From Okeania sp. SIO2C9 (GTDB taxonomy: Bacteria; Cyanobacteriota; Cyanobacteriia; Cyanobacteriales; Microcoleaceae): 39,331 nucleotides of DNA. Location of the stretch: contig NZ_JAAHGO010000082.1 in assembly GCF_010672455.1 (NCBI RefSeq), forward strand, positions 1-39,331. Direction: 5' to 3'. The position numbers were made by a program, and so were the translations under genes. This document shows, one piece after another, positions 2,773 to 35,875 of the stretch. Every line of letters starts with the position of its first letter. The stretch's first letter is position 1. The notes below the pieces were generated by a model, which saw only the letters and a list, made by a program, of their open reading frames with translations, ran no database searches and had not been told where the DNA came from.

Positions 2773-2929
2773 GGCGTTGGTGATTTGAGGTATGATGTCA
2801 TGTCCTGATAAGAGAGCGAGCAAAGAACTTTCTCCTTCTACTCCTCTTTCTTCCCTCCTGACTCCTGACTCCTGACTCCTGACTCCTAAGTGATTAAGAT
2901 TAATATCATACACGCGCTTCAGCAACGCC
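2773..2929. mobile_element. MITE, family A (TIR GGCGTTGGTGA), copy 1
   Basis: This is a 157-bp element with ends GGCGTTGGTGA and TTCAGCAACGCC. It is flanked by perfect 8-bp duplications CCAAAATA (2765-2772 and 2930-2937), and it interrupts tnpB after WLEYFG, with the tnpB reading resuming at (A)YFGFKYGK. The interior carries a CTCCTGA heptamer array (2858-2888). It encodes no transposase and must have been moved in trans. The 8-bp duplication and GGC-N-TTG ends recall IS6-like elements, which is inference. Confidence 0.9.
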
Positions 2930-2984
2930 CCAAAATATTCTAGCCAAAGTCGAAAAGTTGATCAACCAACATCATTGATTGATT

Positions 2985-3035
2985 GTAGGGGCGAACAGCC
3001 GTTTGCTGGCGCATAACTATCGTTAACGCCCCTAC
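2985..3035. repeat. Short palindromic repeat (GTAGGGGCG...CGCCCCTAC) inside tnpB
   Basis: The 51-bp unit has 9-bp complementary ends and was inserted between codons of tnpB just upstream of SINDVG. It belongs to the same general family of GTAGGGACGTT-type hairpins found at 10939, 12119, 29765, 34789 and 35535. The insertion is in frame. Confidence 0.7.
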
Positions 3036-3073
3036 GAGCCTTCGATTTCTTACCATACCTTTTACATTCAAAT

Positions 3074-3102
3074 CTGCCTTCGGCACGCCGCTCCGCGTCT
3101 AC
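3074..3102. repeat. Short GC-rich dispersed repeat inside tnpB
   Basis: CTGCCTTCGGCACGCCGCTC and the following CCGCGTCTAC form a GC-rich unit of a kind common between cyanobacterial genes. Here it sits in the tnpB reading frame and adds codons without breaking it. Confidence 0.55.
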
Positions 3103-3584
3103 ATAAGCTATCAAATCGTTAGATTGAACTACGCAATATGCAAAGAGAGTTGCATATTCTTTACGTTGCCTACTTACTCTCAAATGCTTCCGGGCATATC
3201 TATTTCTAGCTTTATGGTAGTTATGTGACTGCGGCGCATGCGCCTTTGTTGTACTTTTTAGATTTCTGCCTATTAGCTCGGTTTAACTGCTTTTCAGACT
3301 TTCTGTAAAACTGAGGGTTTTCTATAGTCTTGCCATTACTCAATGCCAAGAAATATTTAATTCCTACATCTAAACCTACTGCTTTTCCTATTGTTTGAGA
3401 CTCAATTTTTAAATCTATTTGAATAGCAAATTGAGCATAATAACCATCGGCACGTTTAACTAACCTTACTCGTTTGATTTGGTTCAATTGATAGTAATTT
3501 AAATCGTTAGTACCTTTTAATTTCAAAGTACCTATATCTTTCTTGTCTGAAAAAGTAATTGCTTTTCTATTCTCTGACAGTGTT

Positions 3585-4152
3585 AATTTTGTCGAAGCAT
3601 TGAGCGATGTCGGCATCTAACACGAATTTCGGTTTATACCTAATCGCGTTGAATATTGCTCCGATTGCGTCGTGACATGACCTTCCGGGTCGGAATCCGT
3701 AGCTATTTGGCTCGAATTTGGCCTCCCATTCTGGCTCTAAGGCAGCTTTTACTAGAGCTTGGGCTGCTCTATCGTACATTGTGGGTATTCCTAAAGGGCG
3801 TTTTTCTTTTCTTCCAGGCTTGGGAATCCAAACCCTTCTTGTTGGTTTTGCCTTTTGGTTTAACCTCAGTCGGTTTACAAGTTCCAGCCTTTGTTTTGGG
3901 GTTAAACTTTTTACCCCATCTACTCCTGCTGTTTTCTTACCCTGGTTATCCTGAGTTACCCGTCGCACGGCTAGTACCTTAGCCGACCAAGAATTAATCA
4001 AGGTATGCATGAAGCCTGCGAACTGCTCGAATATCTCCAGGTTGAGAGGCTTGGAATATGCGCTTTTGTAGCTTGAAAACTACTCGTTCAACTTTATGCC
4101 AGGGAATATTTTTCCATTCCACAGTCGTCGATTTTAACTCTGTATTAGACAT
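3585..4152 (-). pseudogene. ltrA: Group II intron reverse transcriptase, frameshifted and truncated
   Basis: ATG at 4152 opens MSNTELKSTTVEWKNIPWHK followed by QKRIFQASQPGDIRAVRRL. A +/-1 frameshift near 4005-4010 then moves the reading to a second frame with NSWSAKVLAVRRVTQDN, AGVDG, WIPKPGRKEKRPLGIPT, YGFRPGRSCHDAI and DADIAQCFDKIN, i.e. RT blocks 0-3. The reading stops at the deletion junction with tnpB. Missing are the YADD block, the thumb/maturase X domain and any endonuclease domain. The family is unmistakable; the product is non-functional. It is encoded in intron domain IV, as usual. Confidence 0.92.
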
Positions 4153-4762
4153 ATTTACTACTACTTGTTCCTATTCCTTCCAAACAATCGTGAATCTGTC
4201 AGCATATCCTCACTGTTAGATGAGGCTTTGGCTTTTGATTCTATCCCTCCTTGATACATCATCTGGTTAGCTACCTACTCAGGTATCGACCTTCTCTGAG
4301 AGATGTATCAAGGTTACTTCGTTCCTAATGACCATTGGTTGAATCTTTAGAGTGATGCTATCCACCGAGGTTAAGGGAAGCGCTTATTGGTCAAGGGTGG
4401 AGTTGCCAATTCCCTACCTTTGCCCTTTTGGGACTCAAGGGTGTATCAGCCTTATTTCACTGGTTACAATTAACGATGGTTTTAATCACATCTTCACTTG
4501 CGTTACTCATGGATTCTTGCTAAGAGGGATGACAGTTCAGGCTACTATTTACCTCTACTTAACTTCCCCGCTTCATCTTGGCATTTGCTAATTACTAAAG
4601 ATGGGGGAAGCGCTTTTAACCATTGCGCCTTGGTCGAGGGACTTTCACCCTCATGGTCATTAAGTTGTCAAAAGTTTTGATTCAACCAATACGAAAGGTT
4701 GACCTCTTGCTCCTCGTACACTTTGAATTGAATTCTCCATTTTTCAAGGAAACGAATCGCAC
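3592..4762 (-). mobile_element. Group II intron inserted in tnpB, 3' part deleted
   Basis: The 5' splice-site-like GTGCG occurs at 4762-4758 on the minus strand, directly after the tnpB codons for TSGW. About 600 nt of RNA-only sequence (4762-4153) follows, as expected for domains I-IV, and then a reverse-transcriptase ORF. The tnpB reading resumes at K-LTLSENRK (about 3591). Thus the exon junction is preserved, while the rest of the RT, domains V and VI and the 3' splice site are gone. The loss fits a deletion between short matches (AAAATTAAC is compatible with both the RT FDKIN codons and the tnpB exon). Without domain V it cannot splice. Confidence 0.8.
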
Positions 4763-4826
4763 CCAACCAGAAGTTTTATATTCTACAGAACGACAATGCT
4801 TTTTAAATTTTAGATAACCTCTGTTG

Positions 4827-34004: not shown

Positions 34005-34011
34005 TATTAAT

Positions 34012-34040
34012 ATTACTCCTAATTACTCCTAATTACTCCT
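34012..34040 (-). repeat. Triplicated 10-bp repeat carrying Shine-Dalgarno cores
   Basis: On the minus strand AGGAGTAATT is repeated three times directly upstream of the hydrolase GTG start. Each unit contains an AGGAG core, so copy number could affect ribosome binding. Only the nearest is at a usable distance. Confidence 0.85.
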
Positions 34041-34987
34041 ATAATTAATAACTTTTCAGCCGTCTATTCTGCTTTTCGAGAAAGCATACTAACCCTAAAG
34101 TTGTTAATACTAGACAAATAAATATACTATCCCCTAATAAATTTTGGCTTTATCGGAGGGATAATTCTATATAACTAATTGAGATTAATTCCGGTTTGCA
34201 GAAAAAAAATGTTTACCGTTTTCTCTAAATTTTTATCGGAAATCACAGTACCTTTGAAGATACTATAATTCAGTATGTCAGAGTGTTAATTGACTTTTTG
34301 CATCGTTTTATACTGATTTTTTTTCGTCAATTTATAATATTATTTACCAACAAATAAATCAAAATATTAAATCAGTAATTGAACATTTAACTTGCATATA
34401 TTTCTAAAAGCACATAAGAAAAATAGAAGGATTTAGTAAATTTTGCACTCTTACAGTAACTAAAAATCAGAAGCAAACTAAATGTGTAGTTTGTTTGCAA
34501 CTGTGTATTGATAGCTAAAACACATCATATTAATATTTCTGAAGCGAGATAATCCATTGCTTTTTCCACTAGCTGTTGGAAGGATAGCTATCAGAATATA
34601 ATCTATTATCTCATATTAAATCTATTTAATTAATTACAATAGAACTTCTTAAGATTCTTTTGTCAAGTAATCTCTAAAACATTACAGACATGAGAATCAA
34701 GTCTTAATCCAGTATGCTAGAAACAATGAAAAAGGGAGTGTTACAGTGTATTCGTTGGTTTATGAAGTACAGTAGGGAGCAGGGAGCAGTAGGGACGTTC
34801 ACGCAACGTCCCTAGGGACACGAGAACATTTATGTAAGTCAATTTAAAATTGTTTAATAATTAGATGAAAGGTAAGACGTTGAGTGTAAATAGTTAAATA
34901 TTATCTAACATTGACAGAGCTTTTAATCCCCTGTAAACATCAGATTTTTTTTGAGGATTCAGGTTAATTATCTGTTAACAATATCAA
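34041..34987. other. Long A/T-rich intergenic region
   Basis: I see no credible gene in the 0.95 kb. A degenerate GTAGGGACGTT...AACGTCCCTA hairpin is present at 34789-34814. The hydrolase promoter should lie near 34041-34150. Confidence 0.6.
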
Positions 34988-35149
34988 CTAAATAATCCCC
35001 AGCAATCCCCCACAGGTCACTATACATACCCATCCAAAAATTGCTATGTATTCTATCTTTTCTTGGAGCTTATGTTCATCTACAAATGTAATTTTGAACA
35101 CCGGATTTTTTGATGAATTTACCTTGATAAAATCAACCAGTATCAGCAA
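34988..35149 (-). CDS. Possible small membrane protein or gene fragment (about 53 aa)
   Basis: An open frame from a TTG near 35149 to TAG at 34990-34988 encodes LVDFIKVNSSKNPVFKITFV, EHKLQEKIEYIAIFGW and a hydrophobic end VCIVTCGGLLGII. A charged segment followed by one membrane span is protein-like. There is no ATG and no Shine-Dalgarno, so it may be the 3' remnant of a larger gene. I do not recognise it. Confidence 0.25.
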   Translation of the reverse strand: MLILVDFIKVNSSKNPVFKITFVDEHKLQEKIEYIAIFGWVCIVTCGGLLGII

Positions 35150-35504
35150 TAGCGATAAGTCAAATTAAATTAGTCAAACCTTGTACATTACCTAGTGCAG
35201 CTACGCGGAAGTTAAAAGTCAAAATTCATGCATCGAGTGCTAATTGGCGAGGTGTCCTACGGGGCGCCTACTGTGCGGAAGTAATTCCGCACACAGCCCC
35301 TCCAGAATGTAAGATGCACTCAAGACAGTCAATCATTTTTGATTTGTAATTGTTTTAGGATTTTGTAAATGGTCAGTTATTTCGGTTGTGCAGAGCGTAA
35401 AGTGTGGGATAAGTAAGTAGGGCTGGTCAATAATCATCTAAAAGCACTCTCAAGAGTGAGTTTTTCGGATTTTTGTCGGGAAAAAAGTGCAAATTTTTCA
35501 GCCT
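35150..35504. other. Intergenic stretch with small palindromes
   Basis: There is no gene. TGTGCGGAAGTAATTCCGCACA at about 35273-35294 is a strong short palindrome (TGTGCGGAA/TTCCGCACA), related to the end of the family J element. GCATCGAGTGC (35230) and AGATGCACTC (35310) resemble degenerate family D ends. Confidence 0.6.
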
Positions 35505-35611
35505 TTACAGCGGTTTTCATTTGGATAGACCACAGTAGGGACGTTCCATGGAACGTCCCTACAAGGTTTGATCTGTGAAGATGTGGTTCATCAATTTGAA
35601 AAACGCTGTAA
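35505..35611. mobile_element. MITE, family B (TIR TTACAGCG), copy 2
   Basis: TTACAGCGGTTTTCATTTGG and GAAAAACGCTGTAA bound 107 bp. The same 28-bp perfect palindrome as in copy 1 lies at 35535-35562. The orientation is opposite to copy 1 and the sequences are nearly identical, so movement may be recent. Confidence 0.85.
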
Positions 35612-35697
35612 GATCAAATCCGTTTAATTGGACATCAAAAAAATCTCGAATCGTCATCACTAATAAATGTTTGTGATTCTTTCTCCTCCTGAGGACT

Positions 35698-35875
35698 GAT
35701 ATAAAATCCGGTTATATAGTATATATTCATTATTCAATCTCCCCATCTCCCCCAACAATACAATTAAGTATTCAACCGGATCTGATATTACTCCTAACTC
35801 CTAACTCCTAACTCTTAACTCCTAACTCTTAACTCCTTACTCCTTACTCCTAACTCCTAACTCCTTACTCATTAA
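35698..35875. repeat. Family F-like element and CTAACTC heptamer array
   Basis: GATATAAAATCCGGTT and AACCGGATCTGATATTA (35698-35790) form an F-like inverted pair. Immediately to the right a CTAACTC/CTTAACTC array runs to about 35875. Other CCGGATTTGA fragments lie at 35961 and 36504, so this may be a cluster of broken copies. Confidence 0.6.

Follow-up and report, generated by a model that had tools for sequence, protein, structure and literature searches.

Heptanucleotide tandem arrays as cargo of several small mobile element families in Okeania sp. SIO2C9

Tandem arrays with a 7-bp period are scattered through a 39,331-nt stretch of the filamentous marine cyanobacterium Okeania sp. SIO2C9 (NZ_JAAHGO010000082.1, positions 1 to 39,331; contig 299 of the 317 in the 10.88-Mb genome sampled, hereafter the window), many of them within miniature inverted-repeat transposable elements (MITEs). 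A preliminary description of the window had placed such arrays in six inverted-repeat families (A, D, F, G, H and J) and had proposed a shared mechanism that seeds or expands heptamers in these elements. Here, we compared the window and its genome with syntenic stretches from congeners (G001–G004), and found empty sites demonstrating that the arrays are indeed cargo of several families with different ends and target-site duplications (TSDs). Arrays were located with Tandem Repeats Finder (TRF) in the window and with a tolerant period-7 scan in an 839-kb sample (800 kb of the own genome plus the window), and element ends in the window were identified by string searches allowing at most one mismatch.

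Elements and arrays in the window

All arrays of the preliminary description were recovered by TRF within a few bases of the points given, except that of family G, which lies about 15 bp from the given position 9114, near which two GGAGACA units start. Matching ends were located for every listed family, and short elements with terminal inverted repeats (TIRs) were found for A, D, F, G, H and J both in the window and in a census of TIR pairs.

Family A has three minus-strand copies, with GGAGTCA arrays that TRF reports as CTCCTGA. The first (2773..2929, GGCGTTGGTGA...TTCAGCAACGCC, array 2855-2887) was identified from its array, its ends and other family copies; the second spans 23642..23808 (array 23734-23766), and the third (26593..26666, array 26593-26625) has a single recognised end, TTCACCAACACC, at its right end (26655-26666). 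The two D elements, both on the plus strand, are found at 5521..5694 (GAGTGCATCTCA...TGAGATGCACCC; GGCAACA array 5566-5673, 15.4 copies) and at 29840..29958, where a GGGAATA array (TRF 29883-29919) lies within an element flanked on both sides by AATTACTA, an apparent 8-bp TSD. The G element (9067..9294, plus strand, TATAGAACCC...GGGTTCTATA) carries the two GGAGACA units followed by a GGGAAGA array at 9130-9180 (TRF word GAGGGAA, 7.3 copies). J (19947..20197, plus strand, CCACATTCCGCA...TGCGGAATGTGG) holds a mixed GGAGTCA/GGAGACA array at 19980-20010 (TRF word CAGGAGA). GGAGACA is also the word of the two H elements, one on the minus strand (20386..20602, AGGGCTTGC...GCAAACCCT; array 20536-20568, TRF word CTCCTGT) and one on the plus strand (25879..26123, AGGGTTTGC...GCAAACCCT; array 25913-25944). 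The F element (29225..29369, plus strand, TATCATGTCCGG...GCGGACATGATA) has an array of 14-bp units at 29262-29309, and an inverted-repeat element with F-like ends (AAATCCGGTT...AACCGGATTT; 35704..35972, plus strand; ACTCCTA array 35790-35870) belongs to a 923-bp stretch missing from G003.

Two further families were encountered. An IS200/IS605-like element, K, occupies 24610..24892 on the plus strand, with an AATTATT array (24612-24641) near its left end and an AATTATC array (24855-24887) near its right end; a second K left end (26211..26246, TTACCG on the minus strand) carries an AATTATT array at 26213-26240, the remainder of this copy running to lower coordinates, with its far end not fixed. 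Upstream of a His_biosynth gene (22852), an N-family sequence bears a GAAGTCA array (22575..22607, plus strand) at one of its ends.

In the window the tolerant scan detected 22 stretches of period 7, a number that in some cases counts fragments of a single array separately, so the earlier list was incomplete. By manual reading rather than computation, 16 of these can be assigned to elements or families whose ends are recognisable, in some cases a single end, and six have no recognisable element (at 6575-6713, 7937-7981 and 22724-22833). About 20 copies of AATTATA, with no element recognised around them, lie at 6575-6711 between genes for a short-chain dehydrogenase and a glyoxalase-domain protein.

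Period 7 prevails well beyond the window. In the 839-kb sample, for which no shuffled control was run, 215 runs had period 7, compared with 2, 40 and 24 for periods 6, 8 and 14; the arrays are far from a chance occurrence. The tolerant scan of the same DNA gave 371 period-7 arrays, only 12 of them mostly within open frames of at least 150 codons. Three consecutive GGAGACA units, with up to one mismatch, gave 873 matches in the 10.9-Mb genome (overlapping matches counted apart) and the reversed control none.

Arrays move within inserted DNA

At four loci of the window, synteny showed the arrays to be part of inserted DNA. The A element at 23642 is missing from G003 and G004 and has GATTTTTT on both sides, and the F element at 29225 is missing from the same two congeners, with a TA duplication. 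G003 also lacks the J element at 19947 (TTAAT duplication) and the K element at 24610-24892, which lies 3' of TTAC without duplication; the empty K site reads CTAC, and both K arrays fall within the inserted DNA. Elsewhere, three H insertions with a 6–7-bp overlap were found, two with an array and one without, as well as one M insertion event with TATA on both sides. In A, F, H and J, empty sites document mobility with a TSD, whereas for D the repeated flank, and for G the repeated copies, may point to mobility, there being no congener synteny at the G locus.

Across all congener alignments, 37 of 99 raw insertion events contained an array. After removal of events >700 bp, those with an other-genome gap >5 and duplicate records of an event, 60 distinct clean insertions remained; 28 of them contained an array, at a slightly looser array threshold. 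Merged insertions specific to the own genome contained an array in 21 of 40 cases. Array density was 2.34 per kb in insertions (27 arrays; a few hundred bases within open frames are counted here), 0.94 in shared non-coding DNA (29 arrays) and 0.84 in unresolved non-coding DNA (15 arrays), i.e. about 2.5-fold higher in insertions than in shared non-coding DNA (P=0.0007; P=0.0002 against both other classes together). Similarly, on two contigs (C1 and C2) that had not been used in defining the insertion families, 115 of 243 arrays (47%) lay within 15 bp of a polymorphic-insertion family, compared with 23% of 3000 control points; with array-bearing families only, the figures were 41% and 14%.

Within insertions with clear TIRs, the array lies 13–69 bp, mostly 20–45 bp, from the nearer end, and the corresponding distance is 0–17 nt for insertions of K, M and N type. 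Array location is family-specific, and array length differs among copies, as was seen between family copies and at orthologous sites. Polymorphic insertions without an array also occur, measuring 113 and 153 bp where the ends are A-type and 458 bp where they are H ends, and are likewise found with P ends, so mobility in these families needs no array.

Family census and controls

TIR pairs at most 700 bp apart were counted and compared with 3000 random 200-bp non-coding windows, 19.4% of which contained an array. Both these TIR-pair counts and the phase counts given below draw on the own genome and on congener stretches together, and some orthologous copies are therefore counted twice. Arrays were present in 18 of 28 F pairs, 13 of 25 H pairs, 4 of 7 D pairs, all 3 G pairs and 3 of 4 J pairs. 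Only F (P=3e-7) and H (P=3e-4) stood strongly above background, D, G and J having few copies, and these P-values, in common with those for phase, are too small because the pooled orthologous copies are not independent. Families A (7 of 21; P=0.10), F2 (4 of 19) and P (1 of 19) were not above background. Some mobile families mostly lack arrays.

At least one repeated flank was found for 95% of arrays and 76% of control points. Three of the long TIR pairs (F, 1635 bp; A, 720 bp; H, 1240 bp) showed no transposase by eye, their frames not having been searched against protein families.

An IS200/IS605-like element with arrays beside its ends

K has no TIR, so that not all host elements are of the inverted-repeat type. 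In five empty-site events K had entered at a fixed tetranucleotide without a TSD; four filled sites read TTAC/CGAA, the slash marking the junction, one aligns as TTACC/GAA, and the site lacking K is CTAC or TCAC in two of the five comparisons. TTAC also precedes 83 of 132 loosely matched K left ends, and K copies start with CGAA after TTAC and end in TTGAA or ATGAA. K inserts 3' of TTAC without target duplication, as IS200/IS605 elements do. A retro-element-like tail, suggested by the terminal position of the array, was dropped because K inserts in this manner. A loosely defined K pattern gave 258 matches, 201 of them without an array, counts that are not usable as rates because they include chance matches.

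The left hairpin of K is conserved, with pair changes, across 39 aligned copies (alifold with RNA parameters); alifold with DNA parameters returned no K structure, and the right hairpin is visible in the sequences without being called by alifold. The array comes immediately after the right hairpin and before the right end, and the words occupying this site include AATTATT, ATTATTC, ATCCATT, AATTATC, AATAATT, AAATTCT and the 8-nt ATTCGCGC. Among 39 distinct sequences, 38 could be measured: the distance from hairpin to right end was 25, 32, 39 or 46 nt in 31, and 32 fell into one residue class modulo 7. A second measurement, on copies ending in TTGAA, placed 33 of 34 in one class.

An autonomous K parent was sought in the genome and not found: there are 20 Y1_Tnp matches, several of them broken, and K-like sequence lies near some, none a clear parent. 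In G004 (L111–L113), opposite C24:139753 of the own genome, a 528-bp insertion without an array lies 3' of TTAC, starting with CGAA and ending with TCAA, the right-end motif of IS608; it is a candidate relative or parent of K.

Array length and words

Orthologous arrays could be compared in 34 cases, covering 26 arrays: 10 pairs were equal in length and 10 differed by exactly 7, 14 or 21 nt. In G003, for instance, the array of the H element at 20386..20602 has one additional unit. Unit numbers, words and inserts also vary among congeners at corresponding array sites upstream of the His_biosynth gene (22852). Spacing across the array fell into one class modulo 7 in 10 of 12 M copies and 8 of 9 A copies. 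Arrays in the own genome and in congeners are interrupted (for example, at C24:221790 and C2:28271) by short inserted palindromes rich in G+C (CCCCTCCTGGGAGGGG type) and by inserts of the GCTATACT type, which resemble small dispersed repeats.

GGAGTCA or GGAGACA was found in A, F, G, H and J, confirming that the same words recur in different families. Visual comparison shows that A and F have in common the array and an adjacent purine tract (GGAGGGAAGAAAGA... to GGAGAAAGTTTTTT), the first part of which is also present in G; since this tract is common to them, A, F and G are not wholly independent families, and to call the families unrelated was too strong.

Three consecutive GGAGWCA units have a patchy distribution in the order, occurring in 14 of 60 genomes including the own. 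Two distant genomes have 627 and 316 matches, while three members of the own family (two genera) have none. The reversed control gave 0 in nearly all genomes, although G052 had 85 matches and the own genome 5. GGAG[AT]CA arrays are massively amplified in G015 and G070, genomes of other families. An Okeania H-type left end, with the array in the same place, was present at 2 of the 15 G070 loci listed. In G015, a single repeat family (GGAGTAAAGCC...) comes after 6 of the 15 arrays listed, in most cases following TATAGCA. A replication-strand bias of the G070 arrays was considered and rejected, both strands being mixed. The word class TAACTGA, described in part of the literature as abundant in Beggiatoaceae, accounts for 36 arrays in the own-genome sample (L031–L070 plus the window), one of which adjoins K-like sequence (L209). 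Other repeats of the window include a tandem duplication of a 100-bp unit with 99% match (24296-24495), and an 18-bp direct repeat and a 15-bp repeat within an open frame (36044-36085 and 38552-38642), which are unrelated to period 7.

Origin and spread of the arrays

We consider it likely, with a probability of about 0.7, that the arrays are passengers dispersed by several transposition systems and that they were subsequently altered in situ, in many cases by whole units. Many arrays are blocks within small non-autonomous mobile elements and, as each block has a family-specific place, transposition plants a ready-made array, a step demonstrated by the empty sites of A, F, H, J, K and M. After insertion, array length changes, often by whole 7-nt units as seen between congeners and between copies, with replication slippage as the probable cause. 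Words may change by point mutation, the variant then spreading within the array, as mixed arrays suggest, and the sequences of A and F hint that their shared words come from a common interior segment that gained different ends. The 7-nt step would be a property of host repeats generally and not of the elements, period 7 dominating the sampled DNA in general.

Several results, besides the non-independence of pooled copies, weigh against this reading. Inverted repeats (score of at least 13 in 100 bp around the array) were not enriched, being found at 40 of 369 arrays (10.8%) compared with 14.9% of 2000 random non-coding points, while randomly paired flanks of different arrays reached that score in 8.9%; flanking inverted repeats as a general rule are thus rejected, in a test that is blind to K because K has no TIR. 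Both flanks were repeated and collinear elsewhere for 29% of arrays and 28% of control points, and on C1 and C2 an insertion family on both sides of the array was no commoner than at controls (7% versus 10%). None of the families was linked to a transposase partner. Differences were of non-unit size, involved inserts or had poorly aligning array edges in 14 of the 34 orthologous comparisons, several arising through inserts such as a short G+C-rich palindrome, and one comparison (W:29895 versus G002C200) may pair different copies. The spacings of H, F, N, D and Q showed no significant phase. Finally, length change fits slippage, which was not itself observed, and unequal exchange or recombination would leave an identical pattern.

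The element-specific mechanism of the preliminary description is not supported, given that inverted repeats are not enriched, P and F2 are at background and arrays occur in shared DNA, some without a recognisable element; overall, the earlier interpretation is partly supported. A version of it in which elements drive array growth, subterminal hairpins or inverted repeats stalling replication forks or exposing single strands so that 7-nt slips occur beside them, appears unlikely. It would account for the closeness of K, M and N-type arrays to element ends, for the phase-locked K array directly after the right hairpin and for the different words, one of 8 nt, in the same K site. However, inverted-repeat families with few arrays exist (P and F2), period-7 arrays occur without a recognisable element, and descent from one founder copy explains a fixed position equally well. 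Equally speculative is a broader proposal, that the ends of small elements, foremost the K right hairpin, are hot spots at which replication or the processing of single strands adds or removes 7-nt units whatever the word, with a quantised spacing between hairpin and cleavage end, and that mobile elements are a main source of the heptamer arrays in these cyanobacteria.

Still less probable is a function of the arrays in the elements, for example as an unpaired stretch that sets an adjustable distance from the hairpin to the cleavage end. Conserved position within families and the H-type end with its array in G070 would agree with such a role, whereas the array-less polymorphic insertions with A-type, H and P ends, and a K spacing that spans at least 25–46 nt, speak against it. 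Chance overlap between elements and arrays that are simply common in non-coding DNA, to which the control-level results for inverted repeats, for both flanks and for A, F2 and P would conform, is least credible of all in view of the insertion density, the F and H counts and the fixed position within families.

Transposition is shown here to bring arrays to new positions in several families. This goes some way towards accounting for the scatter of heptamers, and array spread and length change become separable and measurable in congeners. K, in addition, supplies a naturally varying spacer beside an IS200/IS605-type end.

Comparison with known systems

Small dispersed repeats of Nostoc punctiforme were reportedly described by Elhai in 2008 as tiny mobile repeats lying within heptamer arrays or minitransposons. 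They are similar to what we see in Okeania in that short palindromic inserts lie within arrays; in Nostoc punctiforme, however, the small repeat itself is mobile, whereas in Okeania the arrays ride in larger elements.

Cyanobacterial tandem heptamers go by the name STRR, and are noted, in the portions of the literature covered, for Calothrix PCC 7601 (cited in PMC4692102) and for their long use in typing cyanobacteria (STRR fingerprinting; a heptamer probe in 1995). According to part of PMC4679880, heptanucleotides outnumber every other category among the longer repeats in most genomes. The Okeania arrays resemble STRRs in being intergenic, in their many words and in the dominance of period 7, but differ in that many of them lie within polymorphic mobile insertions. 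A passage of PMC4692102 states that its heptamers were generally not found together with mobile elements, without specifying which species (Xanthomonas, Nostoc) is meant. Our search of the literature on heptamers, tandem repeats and MITEs in cyanobacteria together with mobile elements found no such association among titles and abstract openings, subscription journals lying mostly outside its scope.

With regard to K, the IS200/IS605 family, including IS608, as outlined in part of PMC5934647, shares insertion 3' of TTAC, the absence of a TSD and, apparently, subterminal palindromes. AAAG, as in the left guide of IS608, precedes the left hairpin in 12 of 39 K copies (TGCG in 8, GAAG in 5, not placed in 10). 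Unlike these, K has no transposase gene, ends in TTGAA or ATGAA rather than TCAA and has a heptamer array between the right hairpin and the end.

The BrickBuilt elements of Porphyromonas gingivalis, as described in part of PMC4596501, also contain a tandem array inside a MITE, and titles cited there point to eukaryotic MITEs with tandem repeats (Xenopus, Donax and the hitchhiking GTCY repeats). BrickBuilt, however, is one family with a 23-nt unit, whereas in Okeania a common 7-nt period is found in at least seven families; target duplications among the families tested here are of 2, 5, 6–7 or 8 bp, or absent. Tandem repeats in MITEs are already known, while the breadth of the association in Okeania and the case of K appear to be new.

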